Of a stretch of 64,000 nucleotides of DNA, positions 17,678-60,134 are shown one piece after another. The notes under the pieces are model-generated. The model was not told where the DNA came from, searched no databases, and saw only the letters and a list, made by a program, of their open reading frames with translations. The translations under genes were made by a program, and so were the position numbers. Source of the stretch: Owenia fusiformis (lineage: Eukaryota; Annelida; Polychaeta; Sabellida; Oweniidae); the NCBI GenBank assembly GCA_903813345.2, contig CAIIXF020000008.1, forward strand, positions 34,310,867 through 34,374,866, written 5' to 3'. Positions within the stretch are counted from its first letter, which is position 1. Every line of letters starts with the position of its first letter.

Positions 17678-17832
17678 CCTTAACCTGATGGTTATTGGTG
17701 TTTGTTGTCTGGACATCTTTAAGCATTGTTAGACTAGGCATGAGTTGTTCTATAAATTCTTCACGTTTTGGTGCAGTTAAGTTCTCTCCAGATGGAACAT
17801 GGAAGTCGTACATTAAAATGCTGGTTAAAACA
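17678..17832 (-). CDS. PSME4: PSME4 exon 21 (last in window)
   Basis: Follows acceptor ...TTTCAG and encodes [20 protein letters not shown] onward, matching the VLTYIFM region of PA200. It ends one base into a codon at a GTGAGT donor (17676-17677 on the opposite strand), so a further exon is expected. None was found downstream in the window. Confidence 0.85.
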
Positions 17833-20800
17833 CTGAAACAACAACATTCAGAGAGACTTGATTTCTTGCAATTAAATTACATTCTGATTTCTAAACTTTT
17901 GATTCACTGCATCAGATTAATTGTTTCAAAGATCAATCATCAGTCAGATTAAGTTATATGAAAAAATTAGAAATTATTTTTATTTTACAAGACAAAAAAA
18001 TTCACATTATTTCCTTAGACATTTATTCATCACAATTATTATCAGAAAGAATCCTGGGAAACCCTTACCTGCCCAATCTGTCTCTGACGTTCTTATAGGC
18101 ATGAGTGAGATATGGTTGAAGATACTGCAAAAGTCTGTGGAGCAACTGGTTCACACGCCACTCCTGTTGAGCTAGGACACCCTGTAGTACATAAAGTCGG
18201 CTGAAATATAATACAGAGTGAGTCACATGTTCAGAACATCCTGTAGTAAACAGAGTCGGTTGAAATACAAAACAAAGTGTGTCACATATACAGAACACCA
18301 TGTACAGTAGAACAGAGTCGGCTGAAATACGATAAGTCAGTCACAAATACAGGACACCCTGTAGGACAATGAGTCGGCTGAAATACAATATGCAGTTTTC
18401 ATGATATGTTTATACACCAGGTGATATTATATATAATAACGAGGGAAAATTTTGATATCAATAATGGGGTTGTTATTACTGATTTATTCCATGATTACCA
18501 ATACCATCCTGATACCTGTCCTGGTTTGTAATATATGTAAGTTATTGTATTTACTGTAGCAATCACTGGTTAAATTTCACCCACCTTGCATCATTAAAAG
18601 AGCCACCAACTCCTCTCAGTGGATCCTCCATAAGAAGTTCAAACAATGGATGAAACTGTCTAGGGTCCCGATCCTGGGACATAGTCGCGAAACATGTCCC
18701 CCAATCCTCGACAGTTTCCACTGTCATATTATTCAGAGCAGTTCGTAAAACTGGACACAGCCACTCCCACATGGCCGTCACTTTTTCATAAGGCCAGTTT
18801 TTTGATCCGCGGACAAGACCCGCGATTATCTCAGCACCGACACGTTGGCTATAGTCATGTGTGTCGTGAGCTGTGTCTGCGACCAGTCTTTCTACATGGG
18901 GCTTATACACAGGCAGGAATGTATCTCCAAAATTCCTGAATAGTCCCTGAAAGTGTAAAAGTTAGAACATTTTGATATCCTAGACCTTATTAATTGTCAT
19001 CCATCTCTCCACAATTTAGATAGTACACTGTAAGTAAAATTCATGAAGATCCTGTAAACAGCAATTTTTGCAACTAAACTAGCATATCTAAATGAATATT
19101 TATGATGGTATATGATTTAGCTGACAAAACTTTTCAACATGTAAACATTTCATACATGAATCTGAAAACCAATAAAAACATGCACTATAAACTACATGTA
19201 TGTATGCTTACTTTGAATAGTAAAAAGTTCTTTGAGTTGAATTTGTCGCGTCCTTTCTGGTCCTCTAGAGTTAGATAATGCACAAACTTTGCCACATAGT
19301 CTGCATCTGAGAAACTTTCAAATATTGGCTTCTCTTCCTCTGATAAATCCTCCAGTTTTCTATCTAATCTTGGCTGTTGTGCTGCAGGGGCATAGGTGTA
19401 CATGTGCCTAAAATAAGAGAGTGTAGGTGTACATGTGCCTAAAATAAGAGGGCATAGGTGTACATGTGCCTTAAATAAGAGGGCATATGTGTACATGTGC
19501 CTTAAATAAGAGGGCATAGGTGTACATGTGCCTAAGATAAGGGAGAATATGTGTAGATATGCCTAAAATAACAGGGCATATGTGTACAGGTTCCTAAAAT
19601 AAGAGGGCATAGGTGTACAGGTTCCTAAAATAAGATATTTGGTGTACATGTGCCTAAAATAAGAGGGCATAGGTGTATATGTGCCTAAAATAAGAGGGCA
19701 TAGGTGTACATGTGCCTTAAATAAGAGGGCATAGGTATACATGTGCCTAAGATAAGGGAGAATAGGTGTACATATGCCTAAAATAACAGAGCCTTTGTGT
19801 ACAGGTTCCTAAAATAAGAGGGCATAGGTGTACAGGTTCCTAAAATAAGAAGGCATAGGTGTAAATGTGCCTAAAATAAGAGGGCATAGGTGTACATGTG
19901 CCTAATAAGAGGGCATAGGTGTAAATGTGCCTAATAAGAGAGAATAGTTGTACAATATGTCTCTAAAATAAGATGGCATAGAAATATTAATACAAAGGTA
20001 ACAGTTGTTTCTGAACTGTGAGGGCATATGCGAATATGAAACATGAGGGAAGAGGTGTACAAAAGTCTGATATATGAAGATATAGGCAAATAAAATTAAA
20101 GCAGAGCTGTACAATGTACATAGGGCTGAAAGATAGGGCTAATGCCTCCATAAATATAAAAAATGCTCAATTTAAAATCTTACTTTGGCCATGCGTAGTA
20201 GCCCCAAAAGGTTTTGTGAATCAAGGTGGTTTTATCAAAGTCTTCCTTTGTAGTTGGCACTGTGTCTTTGTTGTAAACATGCCATTGGTTGTCAGCCCGA
20301 TCACCAGGCCTCATTGGGGCTGTCGCCAGGGGGCGCTGTGTACCACTAAGGGCATACGGGTCTATCTCTACTTTCTTGAATTTTTGTTTTTGCTGCTGTA
20401 GTATAGCAGCCACTGAACTAACACATAGCTGAAAAAATATAATTTTTCAAATTATTGTTTCATAAATCAATGTGTTGTTCTTATACCATCCCTTATAAAG
20501 TGCAAATGCACAACTCCATTTTCTCCATATTATTTATCAGATAAATTATTACTTCTTGTTACTTCTTGTTTCAGAAAATAAATGAAAAACTTTATAAAGA
20601 AAACATTGGCATGTCTTTAGAAAGGATAACTTAACACAGAATAAAATTCTGGCTAATGACTCATTCTCCTAAATCTTGCAACTTGAAAAATGATTTAGCA
20701 ATCTAACCTACCTTTCTGACTGTGAGAGTTTCACTGATAAGGTTTTTCATGAATAACCTGACGCCATTTACAGGCATCCTGACATCAAAGCGTAACATCA

Positions 20801-23800
20801 GTGACACCAATTCCATTGACATCTCACTGAACTTCCAACGACTGAAAAATTTCATATCAAATAATACAGATTTTAGCTTTATATCCATATCAGTTATGTT
20901 TGGCTTATATAAGCTATGCAAAAAATGACGTTTTCTAGATCAATTTTTGATGAAATGAATATTTCCCTGATATTTGATTCTTTATTACAAGGCTTTTTCT
21001 CATGACTTATTGAGTGACCTGGTATATTGAATGTATCTTGGGATATAATACCACATTATTCTTAATAAACCCTTAATAAATACAACTACTTACAGTTTTC
21101 CACTGTTTATGAGGGATATCAGAGTCTCTACTAGGTTTAAGTACCCCCTGGAATACAACAGAATTAATTAATAAATGTATTGTTCCAATACGGATCAAGG
21201 TAACTTCTGCATGCTTAACTTTGAAAGTTTACTTTTCCAAAGTTAATAGGTATTTTCCAAAATGAAGGTTGAAAAGTAATTAAATCAGACAAAATATTTA
21301 TCAATATATAAAGGCATTTAAACTACATGTACAATCACTTGCAAACAAAATATTTTAACCCATAAAAAATGAATGAATGAAATATATACTCACTGAATCC
21401 ATTGAACAGTGTTCCTATTTATTTCCTCTTGTTTCCCTTCCTCTATCTCGGTCTGTGTAGCACTAGATACACTTGGGTTTGGTTGACTTGTGCATGTAAA
21501 TACAGCATTGGCTGCTTCTATACTGGACTGGGATGTCTAGAATATGCAGGGGATTATATTGTTATACATGTATGAACACCTGTAGGGGAAACAGTCCTAA
21601 CCCTGTGTTAATAACACCAGTTCAACACCATTACTCCCAATCTTCATGATTTATTAATATATTTAGAAATATCTCTCCATTTTAAAAAAAATTATTTACT
21701 TCCGCTATTGTCATAAATGCGATTGCGCAAGAAGTGAAATTCGTCTGACAAAGTTTGACCCCCTCCAAATATAAAGTAACTGAATTGTAGATTTTGTGGA
21801 TAGTTTACACTAAAACTGATAGAAAAATGATTATAGCATATGTATACATCTATTATTAACAGTGAAATGTATCCAGTATCATGAAATAACACTCAAAACA
21901 CAACCATGCGATAATTAGGATGACTGTGCGACAATTAGGACCACCACACATGCAAGTCTAAGGGGTCTTAAAGTGTTAGCATTCAAAGATTGAGAAATGT
22001 CAAACACAATTCAAATTATAGAAGAAAGGTTGATCTTTCGTTCCATACCCTCAAAATAAGTTTAAATTATCAAATTTGAAACAGTCAGTAGCTTTCCAGA
22101 GTACCCATGCGATGATAGGACCATTTCCCCTAATTCACTGTTTTGACTTGGCCTCACTCTCATTCTTAAAACGAACCCTAAACTATGGTTCTGTCAATAT
22201 TGCACCAACCAATTGTTTCCCTCATGCAAACAAGAAATTGATCAGGGATGAGAATAAAATGGGTTTCCACCTTTGACCCCCAAATGTACACAACAATATT
22301 GAATTGACATCATTTACTGAAAAGGACATCTTTAACAGGCCTTAATCATCCTCTTCCTTAACCTTAATGAGCATGCATTAGGTTGATCAGAATATGTGTT
22401 TATTTTATCTGAGGCACTTACTTCAATATTCACAGCACACGTCTCAACATTTTTGTGTATTTTATCACTTACTTCAATATTCACAGCACACGTCTCAGCA
22501 TTCTTGTGTATTTTATCACTTACTTCAATATTCACAGCACAAGTCTCAGCATTCTTGTGTATTTTATCACTTACTTCAATATTCACAGCACAAGTCTCAG
22601 CATTCTTGTGTATTTTATCACTTACTTCAATATTCACAGCACACGTCTCAGCATTCTTGTGTATTTTATCACTTACTTCAATATTCACAGCACACGTCTC
22701 AGCATTTTTGTGTATTTTATCACTTACTTCAATATTCACAGCACACGTCTCAGCATTCTTGTGTATTTTATCACTTACTTCAATATTCACAGCACACGTC
22801 TCAGCATTCTTGTGTATTTTATCACTTACTTCAATATTCACAGCACACGTCTCAGCATTCTTGTGTATTTTATCACTTACTTCAATATTCACAGCACACG
22901 TCTCAGCATTTTTGTGTATTTTATCACTTCAATATTCACAGCACAAGTTTCAGCATTCTTGTGTATTTTATCACTTACTTCAATATTCACAGCACACGTC
23001 TCAGCATTCTTGTGTATACGTATTTTACCACTTACTTCAATATTCGCAGCACACGTCTCAGCATTCGTGTATATTTTATCACTTACTTCGATATTCACAG
23101 CACACGTCTTAGCATTCTTGTGTATTTTATCACTTACTTCAATATTCACAGCACACGTCTCAGCATTCTTATGTATTTTATCAGCCATTTCATCAATAAT
23201 CTTCAATATGGATGGTTTCTCAGAGTGCTGGGCTTGACAGAGCTCTGGCCAGACCTGCTCCATGACCTCCCAGTTACGCTTGCATATAAGACTTCGCTGC
23301 TTTGTACCATTTAAAACATAAAGCGCCCCCTAGAAAAAAGATGTGTCTCAAAAAGCAATTTCTCCCAAAACTATGTTAAATATTAAAATATTGCAGATTA
23401 TGGTACTTTTTGACTCCGCTGTTTTGTACCATTCAAAACATATAGCGCTCCCTAGAAAAAAAGATGTCTCGATAAGCAGTGTGATGCCAGGTTAAATATA
23501 ACAAGGCATTAACATACAAAATGTCACAGCAACAGCCATTTGTTATAGACACCAAATGCCCAACACCAACCATCAAACACCAACTGCTGAACACTGTCCA
23601 CAAAAAGCTAGAGACCATAACAATGTTACCACTTGTGGTGATGACATAAAAACAGTTACACTTTAAGTCACAATTCAAAACAAAATTTCCTACTAGGATA
23701 TTATATAAGGCCTTTAAATCTAATTTATTGTAGATACATGTAAGCCTCAAATTAAATGAAAGATTCTTGACTGATAAAAGTTAATCTAGCAATTAGCTAT

Positions 23801-50800: not shown

Positions 50801-53800
50801 TTACAACATCCAGCATTTTAATCATAGTTCACATTCATAAAAGCACGGGATGTCATCGCCTGATTTGGTCAATGTTAGGGAGCAGGTCGTTTTTACAATA
50901 AATTTCAATATTTTCACACAAAATATTTTTTTACTGAAAAACTGCTCATTCGCAGAGAAAATGTACTAGCACATGCAATGACAATGTCAATCACGCTTCT
51001 GTACTAAATTCGGCGGAAGTCTTTTATAATCTAATACGAAGTTACTAAAAAAGGCGCGAACGCCCTACACTCAAAATGATCGTTTTTCCATTATAACTTT
51101 TTAACGTAATTTAACGAAGGCTTCTAATTATTATCCAGGATAGTCTAAATACCGATTAAAATATTTCTTACTTCAAACAGATACGCCGTCTTTTATTCAA
51201 TTTTTTAAAAAATAATAAAAAATAACTCTTGTCAATGTTAGGGAGCAGTCAATGTTAGGGAGCAAAATGATTTTATCAGAATATTAAAAATGTAGCAAAT
51301 GGCCATTTAAAATATGTATGGCATTTATAAACTGAACAATTTTGTTTGTATGATTATTTGATACCCTTTGGGGAGGAAAGCGTTAAAATTGTAAGAAAAT
51401 CATTGAAAAGGTTATTTTGCATTTTTTATTTTCAGCTAAATCCTGTTTACGTTCGTTTTAGAAATATTTAGATGCGAACCATTCCTTCTTTATTCGTTGA
51501 CCTCTAACTGTAAATGAATGGATGTATCGTTATATACACTTTTTGATGATGTCATCAGTTCACAATCCTAAATTGTGGATGATAAATTATCTGAACTGAT
51601 ATATAGGCTTGAGAAATCTCCGACATCCTTCAGTTCTATGATTTGATATTTTCCTAGTATTAAAGTAAGAGAGTTAGTCTCGCACTTATCTTTACGACCG
51701 GGTATCACCTGATAGCTGGCACAAACGCTATGAAGGGCTCATTGCGCAGTTACATGTATGATAGTAGATTTTTACACGTATACTTCAATTTGTCAATACT
51801 CAGACAATGCAGTATATAACCGATCTCTGTTATATGTGTACCACTTGCTAATGATACTCTAAAGCCCGGTATACACCAATGGGACACCAATGGGACAAGT
51901 TGGGACATGTTTGTAAAGGCCAATTACTCTGATATTCTGATAAAACCATTTCGCCCCACTGCATTGTTTGCTCCGCCACATTGATCATACTTATTTTTTA
52001 TTATTTAAAAAAAATTAAAGAAAGGTGTACTTGTTTGAAGTAAGAAATATTTCAATATGTACTGAGATTATCCATGATAATAATTAACTTTCCTTCGTCA
52101 AAAATCTTTGAGAGTCCATTTTCTGAAGATAACAAAAATGCAAAACAATTTTTTTTATCGATTTTGTTAAATTTTGTTAAGGCAAGGGGTTTAAAATAAT
52201 CATTCAAACAATATTGTTTAGTTTATAAATGCCATACATATTTTAAATGGCCATTTGCTACATTTTTAATATTCTGATAAAATCATTTTGCTCCCTAACA
52301 TTGACTGCTCCCTAACATTGACAAGAGTTATTTTTTATTATTTTTTAAAAAATTGAATAAAAGACGGCGTATCTGTTTGAAGTAAGAAATATTTTAATCG
52401 GTATTTAGACTATCTTGGATAATAATTAGAAGCCTTCGTTAAATTACGTTAAAAAGTTATAATGGAAAAACGATCATTTTGAGTGTAGGGCGTTCGCGCC
52501 TTTTTTAGTAACTTCGTATTAGATTATAAAAGACTTCCGCCGAATTTCGTACAGAAGCGTGATTGACATTGTCATTGCATGTGCTAGTACATTTTCTCTG
52601 CGAATGAGCAGTTTTTCAGTAAAAAAATATTTTGTGTGAAAATATTGAAATTTATTGTAAAAACGACCTGCTCCCTAACATTGACCAAATCAGGCGATGA
52701 CATCCCGTGAAAAGGGAGGGTTACAAAATTATTGTCAATGTGAGAATTTCTTTTGCTATAATTCCAAGTTTATTTTTATGCATTGACCACAACCATTAAA
52801 AAGTCCGCATGAGACCTTAATTCTCAAACAAAGGTAATCAAACGAGACAAAAAGTGTTTAAGTGATTTTACTGATGGACTTTAATGAATGTTTCTAGGCA
52901 TATTTCTTAATATAAAGAATTTTACAAAAAGATTGAACTTTTACTTCTTTCATTAAAAAAATAAAGGTGTGTTCAGTGTACATTCAAGTGAGCAACTGAT
53001 AATATAATTGTTGTAGGGTAACGTAAACAAATGTAACATTAAAGCCCCCATCTAAAGTTTAAGCCACCTTGGCTTATATTGTAGTCTTACCAAATGCTAT
53101 AAAAGTGTGTGAAACTTTTTTCAATTTCAAGACTTGTTAAAAAAATGATGGATATATTTAGATGAATATATTTAAAACTAACTTTTAGAGGTCACACATA
53201 TCTTTCAATAAGTGATAATTCACACCAATGCATAGCATTCATCCTCACATATTTTGTGCTGAAATCTTTTTAAAAATTGGTTAAAAAACAAGCGAGAAAT
53301 GAACTCATCCATCCATGAAAAAGGTTCAGAGAAAAATGCAAACCAATGGTACAATAATGAAGTTTAGCATATTTAGAAAAGCTTAACATAAATTTTTTTT
53401 ATAAAAAGATTTTGCCAACTGAGTGATGTCACGATGAGGTCACTTATGTTGCAAAATATTTTTGACATGCTAAGAGATTGAAGTGGCACATTAGGTATGA
53501 CATTTTATCATTGAAATAGCGTGTCCTTTGTTCAATCTTTGCATTGGTGTTAAAAAGATAATGTTTTTTGCACTGTATAGTAGAATATTAGATGATTAAA
53601 TTTTAACTTTTATTTGAAAATGGCGGGAAATTTGAATATTTGAGAAATGAAAAATGTTTTTTCTTCAAAAATCTCAAAAATGACTTTTAAAGTCAAATAA
53701 AAACATATTTTCAAACTCTCCATGGGAACTTTAAACAATTTTGAGACCTCCTACTTAATTTGAAGTATCTTCTTATCACAATGTGACTCTTGTGTATTTT

Positions 53801-56800
53801 TGAAAAATTGTGATTTTATGAGATAAATCTACTTGAAACTGATCCTGTCACCTTATGAGGTCTTCAATGTTATGTGCAATATATTTTTTTAGATAACACA
53901 AACCCTGACAAGTTGAGAAGAAAAGAAATATGGCATCTTCAAGTCCCCAAACAGTTTTAGTTGATGATTACAAAGAACTCTTGATCTGTATTATCTGCTT
54001 CGGGACACTGACCGATCCAAAATCAATAACCTGTGGGCATTCCTTTTGTAAGGGATGTATTGGGAAATGGATGAGAGAACATAAAGCAAAAGGGAACAAT
54101 CGATATCCATGCCCTGTATGCAATGAGCGACTCGAGATTCCAAAGAATGGCGCAGATGCATATGGCACAAACATAACTATCAAGTCTATGGTAGAGATAT
54201 TGGAGAACCAGCTGACCAAAGGACAAAATCGAAATGTCAACTGTGATATTTGTATTCAAGAGGGTGAAGCTGTGCCTGCCATGTCCCGTTGTGTTGAGTG
54301 TGCCGAACACATGTGCAAGCCTTGCAATAAAGCACATCGAAGATCGAGAGCGACCCAATCCCACACAATCTATGACTTAACTGGAGATGCAGAGAAAGAT
54401 GCCAGAGCTGCCCTGGATAATTACATAAAACGTAACATAGAATGTCCAAAACATCCAGATCAGCCTCTCAGATTCTTTTGCAAGCAAGATAAAGCTGTTA
54501 TTTGCAGGGACTGTTCAATCACTGAACATCCTGGTCACAACTGTCAAGCCATCGAAGAAGCAGCAAAAGGAGAGGAACGCAACATAGCAGCATTACTCGG
54601 TTTAGCCACCCAGAGGAAAGAAATGTTTGATAAATTCATCCAAGCAGCCAATGATTCCATTCAATCATGTGAGAGAAACACACAAGCTCTACTCCAAGAC
54701 ATAGATGCCGATCATGCTGCTAAGAAGAAACAATTGGATGAACATTTTGATAAGCTCAGAAATAAAGCCAAAGCTGCTGCTAATGAGAAAAAGAAGAAGA
54801 TCCAAGCAAACCAGGACCAGTTCCAACTTAACAAAGGGATAACTGAGAGTACATTGCTTCAACTGAATAATCTCAGAAAATATAACCATCCTGTAGATGT
54901 CCTCAACTATAGTGCTAATGTACTAAAGAAACTTGAAGAGTGGTCCACTATGCCTGAGGAGAATGTTGTACCTATTGACCCCTACTTCTATCAACTTGGA
55001 AGCCTAGATACATCTAGTGCAGGAAAAGTTCAGCATCACTGTGATCCTAAGATATCCAGAAAGGTACATCTACCTGACCAGAACCCAGGGGTCAAATATA
55101 TATTTGGTATCACAAGAGGATTTAACAACAACATTGTTGTATCTCACTCTGGAAAAGGCCTTGCAACTTATACTGCTGATTCCTTTACCCTACAGCATAA
55201 AGCCCAGGGTAACTTCAATGATGTGTGTCGTATTCAGTCTCAATATTATGCAGCTGCTGATCAAAACAACGATTGCATAGCAGTATTTGATAAGAAGCTT
55301 GAGCATCAGAAGAATATTGGAAAGTTTGAAGATCCCCAAGGATTATGTGAGACAGCAGATGGTAAACTATTGGTTGTTGGTTATGATGCCAAATGTGTCT
55401 ACCTTATTGACTGTAATCATGGGAATGTATTGGCTACTATTGGTGAAGGCAAGCTAACATCCCCTCACTATGTAACAATAAATCACAAAGGTATCATATT
55501 TGTGTCTGATGTTAGTGACAATTGTGTGAAGAGATTTACCATGCAAGGGGAAGAGGCACCAGGTGCATATGGCTCTGAGGGTGCAGGAATAGGTCAGTTG
55601 AATTATCCAGAGGGAGTCTGCATAGACTCTCAGGACAATCTCATCATTGCTGATCATAACAACCACAGAGTTCACATGGTAGATCCTAATGGGACATTCA
55701 TCAAGTACTTGTTGGTGGCTGAGGATGATGTGAAGAAGCCCCAATGTGTTGCCATTGATCAACAAGGTGATCTCATTGTGGGGTCATACTATGGGGATCT
55801 GGCCATCATCAAGTACATTGAGTAGAGGCACTACACATTGAAACATGGACATGACCAATGCATTGATATATGGACTATGATACACGCACTGTCATTCTGA
55901 ACATATGTAACATATTGTGGAACATAAACTTCAAGCTTTGAATACATCATCAACAATCAAATCATGAAAATGAATACATTGACTGTGAATATATTAACTG
56001 TATATATGTATATTAATCCAAAAAGTTACAATAGAGAAGAGAATACACACAACTGTATAAAATGATGGACACTGATAAGGACTATATAAATGTTGAAACA
56101 TTTCATAAGTATACATGCATATCATTAATTCTACAAATCATCAAGAATCATTTTTATACAAAAAAGTTTAAATCTGATTTTAGTGTATTTTTGCATTCAT
56201 TAGTAGTCATTAAAATTATATAAAACAATATATTTGTCCATATCAGGACTCAGTTACTAAATGTTATTTGGGGATGAGGGTCTAGATGGGGGAGGGGTGG
56301 TGTTGATGCTAACTTTACCTTGTATATCTTATCAACTCTGCTGCAGTATACCAGTATACAGTTGAATGTAGATGGCAGCCTTATCTCTAGCATTTGTTCC
56401 TCAGGGTTCATTTATGAAATGTTGTATGTGTAGGGGGAACTACATGATAAGGGGGGGGGGGGTGTTTACCTTACCTTGTATATCTTAGTAGAATTATGTT
56501 GCAGTATAGAGTTGAATGTAGATAGCAGCCCTATCTCTAACATTTGTTCCTCAGGGTTCATTTATGAAATGTTGTATGTGTAGGGGGAACTACATGATGA
56601 GGGGGGGGGGGTGTTAACCTTACCTTGTATATCTTAGTAGAACTCTATTGCAGTATAGAGTTGAATGTAGATAGCAGCCCTATCTCTAGCATTTGTTCCT
56701 CAGGATTCATTTATGAAATGTTGTATGTGTAGGGGGAACTACATGATGAGGAGGGGGGGGTGGTAACCTTACCTTGTATATCTTAGAAGAACTCTGTTGC

Positions 56801-59172
56801 AGTATAGAGTTGAATGTAGATAGCAGCCCTATCTCTAGCATTTGTTCCTCAGGGCTCAGTTTGTAGCTATGTGTAGTGGTATCCATGCGACTGTTTGGTT
56901 CATGAGCACTGTTCTCTATGAGTGCAAACATCCTGAAATGAAAAAAATGATGCGAGGATGACAATATCTTATTTTGCGCTAAATAAGCAAAACTTTATGA
57001 TTTAATTAATCTAGTCTTGGAAGCATTTTGATTTGTGAAAATATCCTGAAATCAACAAAAGGAAGTATGGAATTGAAGATTGATATGGTCCAAGATTACG
57101 ATTATTCACTCCTCTCAGGTTTCAGTTTCCTAAGACCAAATCAAAATCAGCCTCGACCTGCACTAGTTGTAGAAACTTGACTCATTTTGACTTTATAGTG
57201 GACAAATTTTCATGATAAGCAGAGTATGATAAAATGTCTGCCTTAACTTGAAATTTCTTTATCTGTATATAAATGTTATACACCCTGGCCATATGATCTG
57301 TTTATCACTGTTATAACCATGTTGTAAAACTTGGACAAATGGACAAATGGTGGTATAACGGAGTGGTAACAAGCTCTATTTCATTAAGCTTTATTTACTT
57401 TTGTCAAAATCTCACCTATCCATGAACTGTAGTACATAATCCTCAAACTGAGCAGAGGCGGAACACAATTCTTTCTCGATCTCACTCAGATTGTCCAGTT
57501 CATAGGTGGCAGCACTGCAGTCGACAATCGGCACCAATGAAACAAGAGTGGAGATCATTTGAAAGGTTACCTGAAAAATGATTGGCCAGAAAATGATTAT
57601 GTGAGATAGATCGTAAAGGTAAATTTTATTTTCTTGCTATTTATTTTTGAACTTCCTTGTATTGACTGTTTCACCTAAATCCTCTTCTTATTTTCAAGGA
57701 AAATAAGTTATTGAAGATTTTAGAAGCAGAAATGTTCAAATTTATTACAGTTTTTGCCAGACAGCCTTAAAATCAAGTGATTATCCTAACCTACAGTGGA
57801 AATGGAAAGAATTTTGTAAAATAGATTTCATAAAATGATGAAGGAAAAAATATTTATATTCATAAAATTGTAAAAACTTTAACCTTAACTTTATAGAAAC
57901 TTACTCTCAACCTTCTCAGCAAAGCAGTAATTTCTATTAACATTTTTACATGTGAATAATAAAATTCAATAATTCAATTTAATCACATAAAACTATTTTT
58001 CATTTTCACCTCCAAATACCAATTGGTGAAAGCTTCATTTATATACAAGGCATCAACATGCTAAATGTCATCACCTGCCATTTGTTACAGATGCTGACCG
58101 CAAAACCCAAATTGGCATCCACAAAAAATGGAGACTTTAACAATATATCACCACTTGGGGTGATGACATAAAAACAGGTTTAAAGCTACTTACCAATGTT
58201 TTCCTAATGTCATTAGGGTCAAGTCCCGGAAGAGTGAGGTTGAGTAAGGGTAGGACGTGTGTAGGTCCTTCAGGGTACCATTTAGGGTTAGATAGCATGG
58301 ATCTAGCTGTAGATGTGGTACACAATAGACATGCCGTCAGTCTGTGAGGCTCTGTCAGTGTCTCTAAGGCTGGGTACATCCTTCATGAAAATTACATATA
58401 AAACATCATGAAGTCAGATTACATGTTGTCACATTACATGTTGTCACATTACATGAAGTCACATTACATGTTGTCACATTACATGAAGTCACATTACATG
58501 TTGTCATGTCACATTACCTCTTGTCACATTACATGAAGTCACATTGCATGTTGTCACATTACATGAAGTCACATTACATGTTGTCATGTCATATTACCTT
58601 TTGTCACATTACATGAAGTCACATTACATGTTGTCACATTACATGAAGTCACAGTACAAGTTGTCACATTACATGAAGTCACAGCACAAGTTGTCACATT
58701 ACATGAAGTCACATAACATGTTGTCACATTACATGAAGTCACATTACATGTTGTCACATAACATTACATGAAGTCACATTACATTTTGTCACATTACATG
58801 TTGATGTCAGAACTCAAATTTCAAATTGTGACACAAAGTTGAAATCAAACACTCTTCTTCCAAAATGTCATAAAATATAACTCTTCGCATTACAATAACA
58901 ATATAACATGACCATAAATTAACAAACATGACCAGATATTCGATTTTTCGATATTGGTACCTTACTTCTCAAGTAACGGTGGAATAATCAGCTCTGGCCT
59001 CAATGTTGCGAGATGATGGAACGTGACACATGCGTCACTGCTACCAAGTTTACTAAACATTCCGAGGAATACAACAGGCTTGATGCACTCCACGAATCGT
59101 GTGACGTCATCATCAGTTAGTAAGTGGGATTCTGGGATTTTAGGCTGCCATGTTTCCTTTTTGTATCTCTCT
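17678..59172 (-). CDS. PSME4: Proteasome activator PA200 (PSME4), 21 internal exons
   Basis: PA200 is a very large HEAT-repeat protein that caps the 20S proteasome in the nucleus and is linked to acetyl-histone turnover, DNA repair and spermatogenesis. Twenty-one exons in order from 59172 down to 17678 join without a frame conflict into about 1,198 codons. They match the central part of the roughly 1,840-residue animal proteins. Diagnostic strings include [50 protein letters not shown] and [16 protein letters not shown]. The 5' exons lie beyond 64000. The C-terminal exons (roughly 400 residues in relatives, including the bromodomain-like region) are not found between 17677 and 1. They may lie further left or have been lost. 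No exon has a stop. Introns are full of minisatellites, several built from the exon edges themselves. Confidence 0.93.
18069..18200 (-). CDS. PSME4: PSME4 exon 20
   Basis: Encodes [20 protein letters not shown] and then YKNVRDRLG, one of the best conserved stretches of PA200. Acceptor TATTTCAG, donor GTAAGG. Its first roughly 27 bases with the acceptor recur in the array at 18201-18385. Confidence 0.92.
18201..18385 (-). repeat. Exon-20 acceptor array (3 extra copies)
   Basis: Three further diverged copies, about 60 bp apart, of the start of exon 20 with its acceptor. On the sense strand each reads ATTTCAG-CCGACT or a one-base variant, followed by a diverged version of the TATGTACTACAGGGTG stretch. 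They lie directly upstream of the real exon in the transcript. Used as acceptors, they would add sequence to the mRNA; most would shift the frame. Confidence 0.8.
18585..18946 (-). CDS. PSME4: PSME4 exon 19 (largest)
   Basis: Encodes [20 protein letters not shown] through [19 protein letters not shown] and [17 protein letters not shown] to GGSFNDA. Long uninterrupted match to the HEAT-repeat core of PA200. Acceptor CTTTCAG, donor GTGGGT. Confidence 0.93.
19212..19407 (-). CDS. PSME4: PSME4 exon 18
   Basis: Begins [20 protein letters not shown] and continues [20 protein letters not shown]. Joins exon 17 through a split Lys codon (AA|G). Acceptor TATTTTAG. The first 20 exon bases and this acceptor are the unit of the array at 19408-19960. 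Confidence 0.92.
19408..19960 (-). repeat. Exon-18 acceptor array, ~31-bp unit, ~18 copies
   Basis: On the sense strand each unit is TCTTATTTTAG followed by GCACATGTACACCTATGCCC: the last 11 bases of the intron plus the first 20 of exon 18. Variants include units with altered spacing ('gttccta' for 'gtgccta'). All lie upstream of the true acceptor, so the splicing machinery meets about 18 near-identical acceptors in a row. Because 31 is not a multiple of three, choosing an earlier acceptor usually breaks the frame. Confidence 0.88.
19961..20183. other. PSME4 intron remainder
   Basis: Decaying edge of the exon-18 array followed by unremarkable AT-rich intron. Confidence 0.5.
20184..20428 (-). 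CDS. PSME4: PSME4 exon 17
   Basis: Encodes [20 protein letters not shown], then [13 protein letters not shown] and FWGYYAWPK, matching the PA200 GDRPDNHWLHY and HWGYYTWPK stretches. Ends in AA of a split Lys codon at donor GTAAG. Confidence 0.92.
20429..20711. other. PSME4 intron
   Basis: AT-rich intron with a direct 'acttcttgtt' duplication near 20545; nothing else seen. Confidence 0.5.
20712..20841 (-). CDS. PSME4: PSME4 exon 16
   Basis: Encodes [20 protein letters not shown] then [19 protein letters not shown], matching the PWKFEHIGIGLLSLLL region. Donor GTAGGT. Confidence 0.9.
21094..21147 (-). CDS. PSME4: PSME4 exon 15 (54 bp)
   Basis: Small exon encoding [17 protein letters not shown], corresponding to YENLVDTLLDGVEQ. 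Supported by phase on both sides (CA|G into it, CT|T out of it). Confidence 0.85.
21394..21536 (-). CDS. PSME4: PSME4 exon 14
   Basis: Encodes [20 protein letters not shown] through [17 protein letters not shown] low-conservation linker region, so the call rests mainly on splice sites, matching phase (0 in, CA out) and position. Confidence 0.78.
21537..22412. other. PSME4 intron between exons 14 and 13
   Basis: Apart from the donor array that follows, I see no repeat or gene here. It is AT-rich with short scattered open frames only. Confidence 0.5.
22413..23137 (-). repeat. Exon-13 donor array, 51-bp unit, ~14 units
   Basis: Each sense-strand unit is GTAAGT followed by the last 45 bases of exon 13 ([15 protein letters not shown]), so every unit ends GAA and runs into another GTAAGT. 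The unit encodes [17 protein letters not shown] (17 residues) in frame with exon 13. One unit carries an in-frame 6-bp insertion. One unit (about 22925) has lost 4 bp, which destroys its donor and the frame. Before that break four extra in-phase donors follow the first; beyond it about ten more units are open in their own frame. Either the array is intron with spare donors, or part is translated as a length-variable exon end. Confidence 0.93.
23138..23329 (-). CDS. PSME4: PSME4 exon 13
   Basis: Encodes [20 protein letters not shown], then [19 protein letters not shown] and AVNIE, matching the GALYCLLGN and EKPSIVRLFDDLAEKIH stretches. The lower boundary is the first GTAAGT; later identical donors in the array could extend it by multiples of 17 codons. 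Phase 0 at the donor fits exon 14. Confidence 0.9.
23330..23934. other. PSME4 intron
   Basis: Contains a partial second copy of the exon-13 start near 23413-23453 ('ctgttttgtaccattcaaaac', 'agcgctccctag'), so even this acceptor has one decayed duplicate. The rest is AT-rich intron. Confidence 0.6.
23935..24075 (-). CDS. PSME4: PSME4 exon 12
   Basis: Encodes [20 protein letters not shown] to [14 protein letters not shown], matching [20 protein letters not shown]. Phase 0 on both sides; acceptor TTTAAG, donor GTAATG. Confidence 0.9.
24076..24400 (-). repeat. Exon-12 acceptor array (~94-bp unit, 4 extra copies)
   Basis: Four tandem copies of the first roughly 38 bases of exon 12 (GTTCGTAAACAGGCCCAGTC and onward) plus its acceptor and about 50 bases of intron. 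The copies differ by few substitutions ('ttgcctgcactg' against 'ttgacagcactg', alternating). All lie upstream of the true exon in the transcript. Confidence 0.88.
24401..24686. other. PSME4 intron
   Basis: Unremarkable AT-rich intron. Confidence 0.4.
24687..24845 (-). CDS. PSME4: PSME4 exon 11
   Basis: Encodes [20 protein letters not shown], then [15 protein letters not shown], matching [20 protein letters not shown] and DLLRLSTSSYSQ. Acceptor TTGCAG, donor GTAAGA. Confidence 0.93.
25115..25269 (-). CDS. PSME4: PSME4 exon 10
   Basis: Encodes [20 protein letters not shown] to [19 protein letters not shown], matching EDDTKSLFLIIK and FDSRWKSFNLVK. Begins by completing an AG-T Ser codon; donor GTCAGT is a weak consensus. 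Confidence 0.92.
25270..25570 (-). repeat. Exon-10 acceptor array (2 extra half-exons, 143-bp unit)
   Basis: Two tandem copies (about 25337-25424 and 25480-25564) repeat the first half of exon 10 together with its acceptor and some 55 bases of intron. They encode the same [20 protein letters not shown]-like peptide, but the second half of the exon and its donor are missing. They lie upstream of the real exon in the transcript. Confidence 0.88.
25571..26231. other. PSME4 intron
   Basis: AT-rich intron; no gene or repeat recognised. Confidence 0.45.
26232..26353 (-). CDS. PSME4: PSME4 exon 9
   Basis: Encodes [20 protein letters not shown] to [12 protein letters not shown], aligned by position with the SMVSLEETKLYTG and VIATVIRKLLN region. 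Phases (CT|C in, A|GT out) fit both neighbours. Two overlapping GTAAGT-like donors are present; the upper one keeps the frame. Confidence 0.85.
26354..26944. other. PSME4 intron
   Basis: AT-rich intron; nothing recognised. Confidence 0.4.
26945..27037 (-). CDS. PSME4: PSME4 exon 8 (93 bp)
   Basis: Encodes [20 protein letters not shown] and [11 protein letters not shown], matching DDILQSLTIVHNCLIGSGN and LPPLKGE. Donor GTAAGT. Confidence 0.9.
27270..27760. repeat. ~150-bp tandem core repeat, 3-4 units
   Basis: Units share 'caagatggccgcccaaaag', 'cagctctagtacttgatatc', 'gaaatccgatgagcgg' and 'gaaatggcgatgacaagatt'. The monomer has the same layout as the ~165-bp core at 48990-49600 (AATCAGTTCTA-type start, ACGGTTT middle, AAAATGGC-type end), so both may belong to one superfamily of mollusc-type ~160-bp cores. 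Confidence 0.7.
27765..27812. repeat. GATCAC hexamer run
   Basis: Short microsatellite of GATCAC/GACCAC units next to the ~150-bp repeat. Microsatellites beside core repeats are typical of mollusc MITE-like elements (family knowledge). Confidence 0.8.
27935..28256. repeat. 18-bp minisatellite downstream of exon 7
   Basis: About 18 units of 'caactcaccacaatagat' with variants. On the PSME4 sense strand many units contain GGTGAGTTG, a donor-like word close to the real exon-7 donor (GGTGAGTTAAT). It may be a seventh junction-derived array, but the shared stretch is only 8-9 bases. Confidence 0.75.
28324..28478 (-). CDS. PSME4: PSME4 exon 7
   Basis: Encodes [20 protein letters not shown] to [18 protein letters not shown], matching the [20 protein letters not shown] stretch. 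Donor GTGAGT. Confidence 0.92.
28515..28730 (-). CDS. PSME4: PSME4 exon 6
   Basis: Encodes [20 protein letters not shown] and [20 protein letters not shown], matching [20 protein letters not shown]. The intron to exon 7 is only 36 bases, unusually short for this gene. Donor GTAATA. Confidence 0.92.
28731..29524. other. PSME4 intron
   Basis: AT-rich. 29330-29460 holds a short degenerate repeat ('aaaccctatatccgaaacc' variants). No gene seen. Confidence 0.5.
29525..29761 (-). CDS. PSME4: PSME4 exon 5
   Basis: Encodes [20 protein letters not shown] then [25 protein letters not shown] and [14 protein letters not shown], a clear match to the AGRMVADMCRAA and ELLWNLQLLSE stretch. It is separated from exon 4 by a 27-kb intron holding three TRIM genes. 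Donor GTGAGA. Confidence 0.93.
29762..31960. other. Start of the 27-kb PSME4 intron, upstream of TRIM 1
   Basis: AT-rich, no gene recognised. From about 31800 it matches the sequence just upstream of TRIM copies 2 and 3 ('tcacaatgtcata', 'tgtatctatttttgaaaa'), so the tandem unit, and presumably the TRIM first intron, starts at or before that point. The TRIM 5' exon and promoter were not identified. Confidence 0.5.
31961..34283 (+). other. TRIM 1 terminal exon with poly(A) signal
   Basis: A pyrimidine-rich acceptor ending TATAG (31956-31960) precedes the exon, 31 bases before the ATG. The 3' UTR runs to an AATAAA at 34278-34283. The acceptor is conserved at all three copies, so each TRIM has at least one upstream non-coding exon. 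Confidence 0.65.
31992..33911 (+). CDS. TRIM-NHL E3 ubiquitin ligase, copy 1 (639 aa)
   Basis: A C-I TRIM protein with TRIM2/3/56/71-like layout, expected to be an E3 ubiquitin ligase with an NHL-type substrate- or RNA-binding end. RING at residues 20-64 (C20, C23, C35, H37, C40, C43, C61, C64). B-box 1 about 105-137 (CDIC, CVEC, C-x2-C, H). B-box 2 about 172-203 (CPKH ... [12 protein letters not shown] ... HPGH). Coiled coil about 205-330, rich in Lys/Gln. NHL/beta-propeller repeats about 390-639 with [15 protein letters not shown] and [20 protein letters not shown]. One coding exon. It lies antisense within a PSME4 intron and is one of three tandem copies. It carries an extra CMCLC-containing insertion at about residues 436-441 relative to the other two. 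Confidence 0.93.
   Translation: MASASPQTVLVDDYKELLICIICFGTLTDPKSISCGHSFCKRCIGKWMGKHKAKGNDRYPCPVCNKQLKIPKNGADAYGTNITIKSMVEILENQLTKGHNQNVNCDICIQEGEAVPAMSRCVECAEHMCKPCNKAHRRMRATQSHTIYDLTGDAEKDARAALDNYVKRNIECPKHPNQPLRFFCKQDKAVICRDCSITEHPGHNCQAIEEAAKGEERNIAALLGLATQRKEIFDKFIQSAHDSIQSCERNTQALLRDIDADHAATKKQLDEHFDKLRNKAKAAANEKKKKIQANQDQFQLNKGITESTLLQLNHLRKYNHPVDVLNYSANVLKKLEEWSTLPEENVVPLDPYKYQPGILDTSNLGKQLKVPKYCDPKISKGVHLPDKNPGVGNILGLARGYNNNIVVSHGWDGLAIYTADFFTLQHKAQGRFWDAVCMCLCCIQSQYYAAADRNNNCIAVLDKKLEHQRNIGKFQDPIGLCETADGKLLVVDDGAKCVYLIDCNDGNVLATIGEGKLTDPRYVTINHKGIIFVSDLSEHCVKRFTMEGEEVPGAYGSRGVGIGQLNCPLGVCIDSQDNLIIADHNNHRVHMVDPNGTFIKYLLVAEDGMKPWSVAIDQQGDLIVGSYNSGDLTIIKYIE
34510..35125 (-). repeat. PSME4 exon-4 donor copies, set 1 (4-5 units)
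   Basis: Tandem units of about 145 bp, each with roughly 80 bases of the 3' part of PSME4 exon 4 (sense strand: CCTGAGGAACAAATG to AGATATACAAG) and an intact GTAAGG donor, followed by a C-rich run. They lie downstream of TRIM 1, as at the other two TRIM copies. No acceptor precedes them, so they are half-exons. They were carried here by the tandem duplication of the TRIM unit. Confidence 0.88.
35126..36740. other. TRIM unit 1 spacer, dispersed repeats
   Basis: No gene. Two related ~380-bp monomers (about 35490-35590 and 35865-35975 mark their shared ends) carry 'ttgcatctaaaaaattcaag' and 'ttttcctggaattttgatga'. The same spacer recurs at 41980-42410 plus 48100-49000 in unit 2. The site near 35545 is the empty version of the LINE insertion point. 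Confidence 0.65.
36741..37345. repeat. ~200-bp tandem repeat, 3 units
   Basis: Units share 'caatattgaacaaaacattc', 'ggtcgggcgccggctgatgg', 'gaccctgcaggcattataaa' and 'tgttaccagattttctagta'. Unit 2 has only one copy of it (50040-50200), so the amplification happened in unit 1 after the TRIM duplication. Confidence 0.85.
37346..38698. other. TRIM unit 1 spacer to TRIM 2
   Basis: No gene. It matches 50250-50843 plus 52710-53097 plus 53570-53892 in the next unit, with interruptions explained by later insertions there. The junction near 37955 ('cataaaagggaggg') is the empty site of the foldback element at 50844-52709. Confidence 0.65.
38736..40631 (+). CDS. TRIM-NHL E3 ubiquitin ligase, copy 2 (631 aa)
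   Basis: Same domain order as copy 1: RING with the full C3HC4 set (from C20), B-boxes 1 and 2, coiled coil, then NHL repeats to the end. No frameshift. The RING, B-boxes and coiled coil are nearly identical to the other copies, while the NHL half carries most substitutions (for example around residues 375-440). That suggests the recognition surface is the part that diverges (inference). Coding sequence begins 37 bases after a conserved acceptor (TTTTTTTAG, 38690-38698). Its 3' UTR carries a 50-bp minisatellite. Confidence 0.93.
   Translation: MASSSPQTVLVDDYKELLICIICFGTLTDPKSISCGHSFCKGCIGKWMGEHKAKGNDRYPCPVCNEQLKIPKNGADAYGTNITIKSMVEILENQLTKGQNWNVNCDICIQDGEAVPAMSRCVECAEHMCKPCNKAHRRSRGTQSHTIYDLTGDAEKDARAALDNYIKRNIECPKHPDQPLRFFCKQDKAVICRDCSITEHPGHNCQAIEKAAKGEERNIAALLGLATQRKEMLDKFIQAANDSIQSCERNTQAMLRDIDADHVAKRKQLDEHFDKLRNKAKAAANEKKKKIQANQDQFQLNKGITESTLLQLNNLRKYNHPVNVLNYSANVLKKLEEWSTMPEENVVPLDPYFYLPGSLDTSSAGQVQHHCDPKISRKVHLPDKNQGINYIYSITRGYNNNIVVSHGDKGLATYTADSFTPQYKAQGNFWDVCCIQSQYYAAADRNNKCIAVFDKKLEHQRNIGKFQDPRGLCETADGKLLVVDDDAKCVYLIDCNDGNVLASIGKGKLTSPRYVTINHKGIMFVSDVSEHCVKRFTMQGEEAPGAYGSMGAGKGQLNYPEGVCIDSQDNLIIADYNNQRIHMVDPNGTFIKYLLLAEDDVKYPNCVAIDQQGDLIVGSAFGDLAIIKYFE
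40632..41065 (+). repeat. 50-bp minisatellite in the TRIM 2 3' UTR (~9 units)
   Basis: The unit 'ctacacagtgaaacatggac', 'atgacaatgcattgatatat' plus 'ggaagaggcg' starts right after the stop codon. Copies 1 and 3 have only one unit at the same place, so the expansion is specific to this gene. It would lengthen the 3' UTR by about 430 bases. Confidence 0.92.
41425..41430 (+). terminator. TRIM 2 poly(A) signal AATAAA
   Basis: AATAAA in the context 'ttacaataaagtttaaatc', identical to TRIM 1 (34278-34283). In TRIM 3 the same position (about 56157-56162) reads ACAAAAAAG and the hexamer is lost. Confidence 0.7.
41665..41975 (-). repeat. PSME4 exon-4 donor copies, set 2 (2-3 units)
   Basis: Same half-exon plus GTAAGG arrangement as at 34510-35125, here with fewer units, on the minus strand downstream of TRIM 2. 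Long G runs (up to about 13) separate the units. Confidence 0.88.
41980..42424. other. TRIM unit 2 spacer up to the LINE
   Basis: Continues the unit 1 spacer homology (35130-35545) until it is interrupted by the LINE. The last 24 bases are a doubled 'ttaaaagataag', the target region of the insertion. Confidence 0.7.
42635..43235 (+). pseudogene. LINE ORF, N-terminal part with 2A-like motif
   Basis: Encodes several hydrophobic segments, then [14 protein letters not shown] (motif at 43025-43051), followed directly by the start of the endonuclease domain ([21 protein letters not shown]). GDxxxNPGP at this place is known in many APE-type LINEs as a 2A-like ribosome-skipping sequence. Here the final Pro is Gln, so skipping is not expected. 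The frame is lost at about 43236. Confidence 0.75.
43236..43770. mobile_element. Insertion inside the LINE endonuclease (~535 bp)
   Basis: The endonuclease frame stops at '...GDAYR' and resumes with '[15 protein letters not shown]' near 43771, so about 535 bases are extra. Near its start are words resembling a Pol III A box (TAGCAAATCG, 43238) and a B box (GGTTCGAGCTC, 43319), which would fit a tRNA-derived SINE. I see no clear tail or duplication. Confidence 0.4.
43771..44784 (+). pseudogene. LINE endonuclease domain
   Basis: AP-endonuclease motifs: [40 protein letters not shown] and the catalytic MTDHSTI. A run of eight A at about 44699-44706 marks a frameshift, after which the next frame continues [16 protein letters not shown]. 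Confidence 0.85.
44785..45511 (+). pseudogene. LINE reverse transcriptase, first part
   Basis: RT motifs: [46 protein letters not shown] and [20 protein letters not shown] (the usual catalytic D is here in FLDVAATFD, with the second A replacing K). Interrupted after [10 protein letters not shown] by the element at 45512-46308. Confidence 0.85.
45512..46308. mobile_element. PIF/Harbinger-like MITE within the LINE RT, 797 bp
   Basis: Starts CCCCCCTATCACACCAAACT and ends with its near-inverse (AGTTTGGTGTGATAGTAGGG), giving terminal repeats of about 27 bases. TTA flanks both sides (45509-45511 and 46309-46311), and removing the element plus one TTA restores the RT frame ([11 protein letters not shown]). 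The interior is rich in 'cgttc'/'gaacg' words. TTA duplication and TIRs fit PIF/Harbinger. Non-coding. Confidence 0.78.
46309..47090 (+). pseudogene. LINE reverse transcriptase, second part
   Basis: Continues [31 protein letters not shown] and the catalytic YADD (46473-46484). A frameshift near 46665 moves to the frame of [20 protein letters not shown] and [13 protein letters not shown]. Confidence 0.85.
47090..47335. other. Insertion in the LINE C-terminal region (~245 bp)
   Basis: The reading frame of the LINE is lost at about 47090 and resumes at about 47336 ([18 protein letters not shown]). The extra segment repeats GCGTGACA and 'caaatacgcaaattgcg'-type words in both orientations, as in a small foldback element. 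No certain boundaries. Confidence 0.45.
47336..47897 (+). pseudogene. LINE C-terminal segment
   Basis: Encodes [20 protein letters not shown] and later [17 protein letters not shown], a C-x-C-x7-H-x4-C segment common at the C-terminus of I/Jockey/CR1-type LINE polyproteins. Ends at a stop at 47895-47897, followed by about 190 bases of 3' UTR and an A/T-rich tail. Confidence 0.8.
48101..48965. other. TRIM unit 2 spacer after the LINE
   Basis: Resumes the unit 1 spacer (35546-36390) exactly where the LINE interrupted it. No gene. Confidence 0.7.
48966..49678. mobile_element. TIR element with ~165-bp core repeats (4-5 units)
   Basis: Inverted ends TATCGCACCCT (48966) and AGGGTGCGATA (ending 49678) enclose four to five tandem cores of about 165 bp. 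The cores share 'aaaaactaatcagttctaaa', 'aaatgaatccctcaaacggt' and 'ttggctggaaacctgtagac'. TRIM unit 1 lacks it at the matching place (about 36390). Short elements with tandem ~160-bp cores are known in bivalves (pearl/BIV160-type); assignment to that family is inference. Confidence 0.7.
49679..50843. other. TRIM unit 2 spacer
   Basis: Matches 36395-37950 of unit 1, with a single copy of the ~200-bp repeat that is tripled there. No gene. Confidence 0.65.
50844..52709. mobile_element. Long-TIR foldback element, 1.87 kb
   Basis: Arms of about 515 bases (50844-51362 and 52198-52709) are inverse copies with few differences. They begin CACGGGATGTCATCGCCTGA. AAAAG is duplicated at the edges, and unit 1 has the intact empty site (about 37955, 'cataaaagggaggg'). 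TCAATGTTAGGGAGCA occurs near each end and twice again about 400 bases further in. The 835-base centre holds a diverged third copy of part of an arm (about 51960-52130) and no long reading frame. Superfamily unknown. Confidence 0.85.
52710..53892. other. TRIM unit 2 spacer up to TRIM 3
   Basis: Matches the end of the unit 1 spacer, except for an extra segment of about 475 bases (53098-53569) absent there. The extra segment has no visible coding capacity or clear terminal repeats. The end (53885-53892) is the conserved TRIM acceptor. Confidence 0.6.
53930..55825 (+). CDS. TRIM-NHL E3 ubiquitin ligase, copy 3 (631 aa)
   Basis: Same architecture as the other two copies: RING (C3HC4 from C20), two B-boxes, coiled coil and C-terminal NHL repeats, no frameshift. 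Closest to copy 2 (same length, same SLDTSSAG and [14 protein letters not shown] stretch). Acceptor ...TTTTTTTAG at 53884-53892, then 37 bases of 5' UTR. The AATAAA that ends copies 1 and 2 is mutated here, so the transcript end may differ. Antisense to PSME4 and only about 0.95 kb from PSME4 exon 4. Confidence 0.93.
   Translation: MASSSPQTVLVDDYKELLICIICFGTLTDPKSITCGHSFCKGCIGKWMREHKAKGNNRYPCPVCNERLEIPKNGADAYGTNITIKSMVEILENQLTKGQNRNVNCDICIQEGEAVPAMSRCVECAEHMCKPCNKAHRRSRATQSHTIYDLTGDAEKDARAALDNYIKRNIECPKHPDQPLRFFCKQDKAVICRDCSITEHPGHNCQAIEEAAKGEERNIAALLGLATQRKEMFDKFIQAANDSIQSCERNTQALLQDIDADHAAKKKQLDEHFDKLRNKAKAAANEKKKKIQANQDQFQLNKGITESTLLQLNNLRKYNHPVDVLNYSANVLKKLEEWSTMPEENVVPIDPYFYQLGSLDTSSAGKVQHHCDPKISRKVHLPDQNPGVKYIFGITRGFNNNIVVSHSGKGLATYTADSFTLQHKAQGNFNDVCRIQSQYYAAADQNNDCIAVFDKKLEHQKNIGKFEDPQGLCETADGKLLVVGYDAKCVYLIDCNHGNVLATIGEGKLTSPHYVTINHKGIIFVSDVSDNCVKRFTMQGEEAPGAYGSEGAGIGQLNYPEGVCIDSQDNLIIADHNNHRVHMVDPNGTFIKYLLVAEDDVKKPQCVAIDQQGDLIVGSYYGDLAIIKYIE
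56280..56772 (-). repeat. PSME4 exon-4 donor array, set 3 (3 units next to the true exon)
   Basis: Three ~148-bp units directly downstream of exon 4 in the transcript. Each repeats about 80 bases of the exon 3' end with an intact (GTAAGG) or near-intact (GTAAAG) donor, then a C-run and filler ('catttcataaatgaaccctg'). This is the likely parent of the sets at 34510 and 41665, because only here does the complete exon adjoin the array. Confidence 0.9.
56773..56932 (-). CDS. PSME4: PSME4 exon 4
   Basis: Encodes [20 protein letters not shown] to [20 protein letters not shown], matching VELGLSSTFSTILTQCSKEI. Acceptor TTTCAG, donor GTAAGG, phase 0 out into exon 5, which lies 27 kb away. Confidence 0.9.
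56933..57415. other. PSME4 intron
   Basis: AT-rich intron with no repeat or gene recognised. Confidence 0.4.
57416..57570 (-). CDS. PSME4: PSME4 exon 3
   Basis: Encodes [20 protein letters not shown] and [20 protein letters not shown], matching ATFSTLVPLVDCSS and EDFVLQFMDRCF. Donor GTGAGA. Confidence 0.93.
57571..58193. other. PSME4 intron
   Basis: AT-rich intron. 58035-58170 resembles part of another PSME4 intron (23500-23650; shared 'aaatgtca', 'ccatttgttacaga', 'accacttg-ggtgatgacataaaaaca'), an old dispersed repeat. Confidence 0.5.
58194..58380 (-). CDS. PSME4: PSME4 exon 2 (in window)
   Basis: Encodes [20 protein letters not shown] then [20 protein letters not shown] and DPNDIRKTL, a near-identical match to the [18 protein letters not shown] and PEGPTHMLPLL region. 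A split Lys codon (AA|G) joins it to exon 1. Confidence 0.94.
58385..58805. repeat. ~30-bp minisatellite next to exon 2
   Basis: Alternating 'acatgaagtcacatt' and 'acatgttgtcacatt' halves, about 13-14 full units, starting five bases from the exon 2 acceptor. Unlike the junction arrays, its unit does not contain exon sequence. Confidence 0.88.
58966..59172 (-). CDS. PSME4: PSME4 exon 1 (first in window)
   Basis: Encodes [20 protein letters not shown] then [20 protein letters not shown] and [12 protein letters not shown], matching KTPVPDSHKLTDQDVTDFV and MRPELVIPPVLE. Earlier exons must lie beyond 64000. The acceptor (TTATAG) is preceded by a weak pyrimidine tract. Confidence 0.9.
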
Positions 59173-60134
59173 CTATAATGTAAAACCAATTTGTTTATCA
59201 CAAATATTTATTCAGAAGTTTTATGGAATTTGTTCTTAAAAGATTTACAGACTGTAATATGAATATGAAGAGATTCAATATTTAAACTGCTTAGAATCAG
59301 AGGTGTAGCCTTAAAATGGGATAAGACATTAAGACTTAATTTTCACAGTAGCAATTTCAAAATACAGATGAATTAACAGTTTTCTTTAAGTTCTGGCAAG
59401 AGAATTGCCAGTCTCCTCCTTGGCTACACCCGTGATCATAGAATTATATAACATTGAAATAGAAAATAAATACTTATTTTATTTTAATGAAGCATTCAAT
59501 TATACTGTTATGGTTGCCCAAAACGAAATCCACATGAATTGATGTTGATTTGGCAACCATGGAAACAAACTTGCATGAAGCTATCCCAGCATGCCCCATC
59601 ACAATATTTCCAATAGATCACAAAAGCTTCCAAAAATACAAGTCAAATTAATTTTACCAAAAGTTTAATTTCTCATATTTTAGTGGTCAGCAATCTTCAA
59701 TTTTGAATATCACCTCTGGGGCACCAGATTTCCCAAAACATCTGATAGATAATAAGATTATCCTTTCCACTTGTTTCATAATTTGACACCGAATCATATC
59801 ATATAAATGTAACCGTGACAAAGAATGAAAATGAAGAAAACAAACAAAAAGCCAAAAAAAATATGCGAAAAACAAACTTTTTTGGTGTAATTAATTTGAC
59901 CTATGCAAACACTTGCAGTGATCTTTAGAATAATGAAGAATACAAAAATATGAGAAAACAAACTTTTGGTGTTACTAATTTGACAACTTGCACATACCTA
60001 TTTAAACGCTTGCATAACTGAAGGGGAAGTCTCAACATCAGCTTAGCTAGTTTTGTCTTAAATACACATATTCAAATAACATAATCAGAAAGTGAGAAAG
60101 TTAAGGTGTAGAAGTTGTCACTGTGTACACATAT
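59173..60134. other. PSME4 intron, unique part
   Basis: AT-rich intron sequence; no gene. A mild internal repeat occurs around 59870-59990 ('aacaaacttttttggtgt' variants). Confidence 0.4.

Follow-up and report, generated by a model that had tools for sequence, protein, structure and literature searches.

We analyzed a window of 64,000 nucleotides from the polychaete Owenia fusiformis (GCA_903813345.2, contig CAIIXF020000008.1, positions 34,310,867 to 34,374,866 of the forward strand), in which the gene for proteasome activator subunit 4 (PSME4), identified by comparison with PSME4 chains of solved structure (E = 0), occupies 17678..59207 on the minus strand. Our splice model places 19 exons of this gene in the window, uses canonical splice sites and keeps the frame open across the joined exons; the start of exon 8 is the least certain call, and no acceptor was found for exon 1 in the model of the window. 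Judged by protein length, PSME4 should continue past both window ends. A sequence-only reading of the same DNA had proposed an exon map that agrees with this model in all but its numbering, so that the exons it called 4, 10, 12, 13, 18 and 20 are exons 4, 9, 11, 12, 16 and 18 here.

Each of these six exons has one edge covered by a tandem array, as that reading had described and as we confirmed with TRF, the splice model and a direct readout of the units. According to TRF and the splice model, four of the arrays cover acceptors and two cover donors, all in a minus-strand gene. The acceptor arrays lie at the start of exon 18 (edge at 18200; array 18177..18390, 59-bp unit, 3.6 copies), exon 16 (edge at 19407; 19388..19981, 31-bp unit, 19.3 copies), exon 11 (edge at 24075; 24038..24403, 79-bp unit, 4.6 copies) and exon 9 (edge at 25269; 25185..25606, 145-bp unit, 2.9 copies), and the donor arrays at the end of exon 12 (edge at 23138; 22415..23183, 51-bp unit, 15 copies) and exon 4 (edge at 56773; 56352..56858, 149-bp unit, 3.4 copies). 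Thus, the unit lengths of 31, 51 and ~60 bp (59 bp in our analysis) that had been reported were reproduced, while those of 94, 143 and ~148 bp had to be corrected to 79, 145 and 149 bp. When read out, the units proved to join a piece of the exon to its splice site and to a piece of the intron—e.g., the 51-bp donor unit of exon 12 is made of 44 exon and 7 intron bases—and the exon 12 array is interrupted by units with other lengths. The outermost unit of every array is formed by the intact exon edge. Acceptor arrays are indeed found upstream of the intact exon and donor arrays downstream of it, but this regularity has no value as evidence, since tandem copying of an edge can only place the copies on the intron side, with the intact exon left outside.

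Copies of the exon 4 donor array were also found within intron 4, at 34529..35127 (minus strand; four stretches matching the exon 4 end at 87-89%) and at 41685..41984 (minus strand; two stretches, 88%). Overall, both show 86-89% identity with this exon end, and both sit within mutually similar intron blocks of 0.7-2.6 kb with 85-95% identity. Intron 4 itself (29762-56772) is 27 kb long, compared to about 5 kb in the PSME4 paralog described below. Outside the modelled exons, past their low-coordinate end, a tandem array of 62-bp units occurs at 15253-16507; it has 20 copies, and its core, GAGTACCATGATGGTACTC, is near-palindromic.

To compare the six arrays with chance, we collapsed every array to one unit and placed that unit at random relative to the 36 edges of the gene. 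Between 17600 and 59300, TRF yielded 13 non-redundant arrays with a period of at least 20 and a score of at least 80, of which 6 span an edge, compared to 1.21 expected (P = 4.5e-4); with a period of at least 12 and a score of at least 50, the result was 6 of 20 arrays against 1.26 expected (P = 6e-4). Since the PSME4 locus had been picked for its arrays, independent samples of gene families weigh more than this test.

We drew such samples from the genome (498 Mb searched; contigs C1 to C12, each 32 to 62 Mb, make up ~477 Mb together). The TCP1 and kinesin families were picked without regard to repeats and gave 53 stretches, and the ubiquitin hydrolases (UCH), with 34 stretches, were added as a replicate sample. 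Edge calls were based on 54 of 60 matches for TCP1, 97 of at least 144 for kinesin (122 of 218 candidates having been scored in that search) and 38 of 73 for UCH. Of the L061 array, which has 18 copies, 17 were left out of the TCP1 and kinesin samples, as were matches that were isolated or lacked introns, kinesin genes whose exons are widely spread, and some multi-stop matches, a few of these within fetched stretches; for UCH, the matches left out were 10 array copies, together with 25 that had at least two internal stops. As a result of these omissions, the sampled stretches are biased to exon-dense gene parts. The kinesin and UCH searches in themselves already revealed edge arrays, in the form of 18 and 11 evenly spaced matches to one domain end.

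Across the three samples, arrays cover 20 of the 328 edges (95% CI 3.8-9.3%), corresponding to 6/95 for TCP1, 8/171 for kinesin and 6/62 for UCH. At least three further edge arrays, identified by reading the units, occur at exons outside the matched sets (L030, L042 and L103) and are uncounted. When PSME4 and the samples were pooled, 17 of 202 acceptors and 9 of 162 donors were spanned. The occurrence of edge arrays in TCP1, kinesin and UCH genes contradicts the earlier suggestion of a locus-specific process. PSME4 does have a somewhat higher share of edges in arrays than the other genes (6/36 vs. 20/328; one-sided Fisher P = 0.03), but this comparison ignores the choice of the locus, and we do not take the excess as special for a gene that had been picked on account of its arrays. 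A process peculiar to PSME4 is thus very improbable.

Several other features of the sampled loci deserve mention. One UCH exon (L094) has arrays at both edges, an 81-bp acceptor array and a 54-bp donor array, and at L078 (G000:C9:8170300-8174100) there is a 150-bp acceptor array of 11.2 copies, where the beginning of the UCH domain is matched eleven times along a single open frame of 666 amino acids. Some other, non-edge arrays consist of dispersed repeats. Three unrelated loci share a dispersed repeat that contains tandem units of ~136-149 bp (L021 5920-7035, L045 0-401 and L076 25-305, in gene orientation).

Coverage of edges at no more than chance level, which the sequence-only reading had named as evidence against it, is what a raw count gives: in the samples, 6.1% of edges and 10.2% of bases lie in arrays, with no excess at edges. 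A unit-based null, which reduces every array to a single unit and places this unit everywhere within its locus, gives a different result, since 20 of the 67 sampled arrays span an edge, ~2.5 times the expected 8.1 (P = 2.3e-5). We think the unit-based null is to be preferred over raw coverage, since an edge can be captured by the first duplication only, and the claim of an excess depends on this choice. Under it, arrays cover edges more often than seed placement predicts, in line with what had been proposed. By family, the excess was significant for TCP1 (P = 0.004) and kinesin (P = 0.006), and for UCH alone 6 of 20 arrays spanned an edge, with 3.25 expected (P = 0.07). Without the two loci revealed by the searches, 18 of 65 arrays spanned an edge (P = 1e-4), and when loci of doubtful edges were removed as well, the figure was 14 of 57 (P = 0.0014).

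These counts come from an edge caller that was relaxed after it had missed UCH edges, at a point when the arrays were already known, and both samples were redone with it. The first, stricter caller gave 13 spanning arrays among 47 for TCP1 and kinesin (248 edges, 4.44 expected, P = 1.3e-4) and 3 among 20 for UCH (44 edges, 1.70 expected, P = 0.23). A core-overlap test, which is independent of edge calls, gave 21 of 67 arrays, compared to 6.8 expected (P = 1.3e-7), with at least two of the 21 hits (L019 2301 and L040) resembling an overrun of the model into the intron. The excess is confined to arrays that span an edge, as non-spanning arrays at most 60 bp from an edge were at expectation (9 vs. 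8.3). No array in the samples lies wholly within a matched exon, where 7.3 were expected, which is as purifying selection demands. We also compared the match among copies within arrays, and found a median of 95% in spanning arrays vs. 90% in the others (P = 0.03).

One explanation for these results is that exon–intron junctions are birth hot spots for tandem duplications, via transcription, splicing or chromatin. Both the unit-placement and the core-overlap tests point to such hot spots, as does the ordinary number of arrays close to an edge, which makes the excess specific to spanning, and spanning arrays are more uniform, as if younger. However, the argument rests on the unit-placement model, given that raw coverage is without excess; the UCH sample by itself falls short of significance with either caller; and the units lack the G-rich skew that R-loops, the mechanism put forward earlier, would call for (mean unit skew 0.001, positive in 9 of 25). 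The excess over the placement null suggests that something may promote the birth of arrays at edges or their survival there, and we regard junction hot spots as a possibility worth keeping in view but not as the likelier outcome.

The history of the arrays can be followed in a second PSME4 copy ~105 kb from the first, whose versions of the 19 exons have 94-100% identity; the two gene copies are recent. Five of the PSME4 edge arrays are common to both copies, with different copy numbers. The exon 18 array has 3.6 copies in the window and 5.5 in the paralog; the exon 11 array has 4.6 copies of a 79-bp unit vs. 7.7 copies of a 78-bp unit; the exon 4 array has 3.4 copies of a 149-bp unit vs. 2.6 copies of a 128-bp unit; and the exon 9 array has 2.9 copies of a 145-bp unit vs. 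20.6 + 4.4 copies of a 160-bp unit, the paralog's array being split by an insert of ~11 kb (G000:C8:34489413-34500717; L015, L001). The exon 16 array is present as well, split there over several TRF rows. Conversely, the exon 12 donor array is represented in the paralog by a single unit; immediately after it comes the intron stretch that trails the array in the window. Of 134 aligned flank bases, 122 are identical between the two copies, and the ends of the 51-bp unit have only TG in common. The single unit indicates that this array was either born or fully lost after the gene duplication, and it could represent the full collapse of an older array. The paralog also has a diverged extra copy (90%) of the exon 12 acceptor edge at G000:C8:34485886-34485925 (L069), a place without a TRF array.

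Since tandem arrays are error-prone in assemblies, we considered whether the arrays are assembly artefacts. The copies within them are diverged, units change along them, their sizes are specific to each paralog, and they occur in many unrelated genes. For comparable arrays in amphioxus, passages of the published accounts state that a globin array is backed by trace data and that resequencing of PGBD5 speaks against assembly errors (PMC3087553, PMC3902484). Of all the explanations we considered, artefact is the one we find hardest to credit.

We then examined the units themselves. Among 25 edge units compared, the only similarity was one 13-base match, which agrees with the earlier view of the arrays as separate events and rules out a common mobile element as their source. 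Unit lengths showed no preference for the reading frame (11 of 26 were multiples of 3, P = 0.41). In-frame exonisation was likewise rejected, as there is no frame bias and the 51-bp array is broken up by its units of other lengths. Mismatches per site among copies amounted to 0.022 in the exon parts and 0.028 in the intron parts; this similar variability suggests that the exon parts of the copies are unconstrained as protein.

In addition to exon sequence, each unit carries a splice site, and the sequence-only reading had offered selection for spare splice sites as one cause of the arrays. The splice dinucleotide varied in 1 of 25 arrays, compared to 5.4 expected (P = 0.01), and measured against the identical dinucleotide elsewhere in the units the result was 1 vs. 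3.5 expected in 23 arrays (P = 0.04); an earlier set gave variation in 1 of 38 columns from 19 arrays (P = 0.04). When the site was centred in the alignment, however, it varied in 3 of 25 arrays, with 5.9 expected (P = 0.10). For all of these tests except the one on 19 arrays, we set one L100 edge by hand and omitted the L077 array, which was likewise absent from the unit comparison and the skew analysis. For the most part the array copies retain their splice sites, which leaves room for weak selection. That selection keeps the arrays as spare or competing splice sites is nevertheless unlikely: the retention depends on the alignment (P = 0.01 to 0.10), the units have no frame preference, the paralog has just one unit of one of the arrays, and copy numbers vary several-fold.

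Together, these results make it probable that the arrays are tolerated, unstable minisatellites of the kind termed "mirages", derived from short tandem duplications over exon–intron boundaries. Each array would have been born from a small tandem duplication that covered a boundary and would have grown by slippage or unequal exchange, expanding and shrinking as other minisatellites do. Such arrays may be tolerated because the splice site chosen is the one beside the intact exon body (exon definition), so that the extra copies would remain intronic. Each array is then a natural experiment, with up to ~20 near-identical sites on offer, from which the splicing machinery must choose that of the intact exon, and if ~6% of edges carry arrays, Owenia offers many tests of splice-site choice.

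Although the sequence-only reading knew of no description of such structures, boundary-spanning minisatellites had already been named mirages in amphioxus Adh. The passages of the amphioxus reports available to us describe them in Adh3, the globins BflGb6 and BflGb9, troponin C and PGBD5, with units of 10-160 bp on the donor or acceptor side and unstable copy number, and say that they leave regular splicing undisturbed (PMC3087553, PMC3902484). As far as those passages go, the Owenia arrays are alike in that their units span exon–intron boundaries (six in PSME4 and 20 in the samples), in that both donor and acceptor boundaries are repeated, and in their length instability, which in Owenia is seen between paralogs and not between alleles.

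Where the Owenia arrays depart from the known mirages is the host, which is not a cephalochordate, as the homeodomains of this genome are of lophotrochozoan type. The assembly gave no match to mitochondrial COX1, and the affinity was read from Hox genes instead. Translation revealed eleven homeodomains at 17.97-18.47 Mb of contig 1, one of them cut short. We take these eleven, among which are Lox5-, Lox4-, Lox2- and Post-like types, to be the Hox set of a lophotrochozoan, and a twelfth homeodomain, 0.5 Mb off, is presumably Gbx-like. Since the host describes the known range of mirages and not their structure, the assignment by structure stands. For Owenia fusiformis, the Hox cluster has been placed on chromosome 1 with Post1 apart (PMC9977687), while two posterior-type homeodomains lie side by side here.

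Other systems share some of these features. In human segmental duplications, variable internal tandem repeats occur in recently duplicated genes, some at exon–intron boundaries, and the passages concerned say that they yield novel introns and changed primate transcripts (PMC2812944), whereas the Owenia exon appears intact. A related idea is the Rogers model, in which introns are gained via tandem duplication of AG/GT (as cited in PMC3087553); the Owenia splice-site copies could in principle give new introns, and the arrays bear on this old idea. In earthworms, also annelids, metallothionein genes have large intron minisatellite arrays that vary between gene copies, and in one clone duplications of the fourth exon are missing from the transcript; the passages at hand mention no edge-spanning units, and the exon duplications might be related to the arrays described here (PMC12783039). 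This was the nearest case that our searches of open-licence papers turned up, and they found no report of mirages in annelids or other lophotrochozoans.

As far as our searches show, and within the open-licence literature, the Owenia arrays are mirages in a new phylum and provide the first sample-based frequency for them. Compared to the amphioxus cases, which the passages present as gene-by-gene reports from a chordate, Owenia adds a lophotrochozoan host, counts from a gene sample, a test of array placement and a sister site with a single unit. With yet more reserve than for the hot spots themselves, we suggest that a mutational process coupled to junctions may operate in animals, amphioxus and this annelid included, and that here it has turned about 1 in 16 edges into a minisatellite of splice sites. 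Mirages in a lophotrochozoan may mean that such arrays are general in minisatellite-rich animals, and not a cephalochordate oddity.
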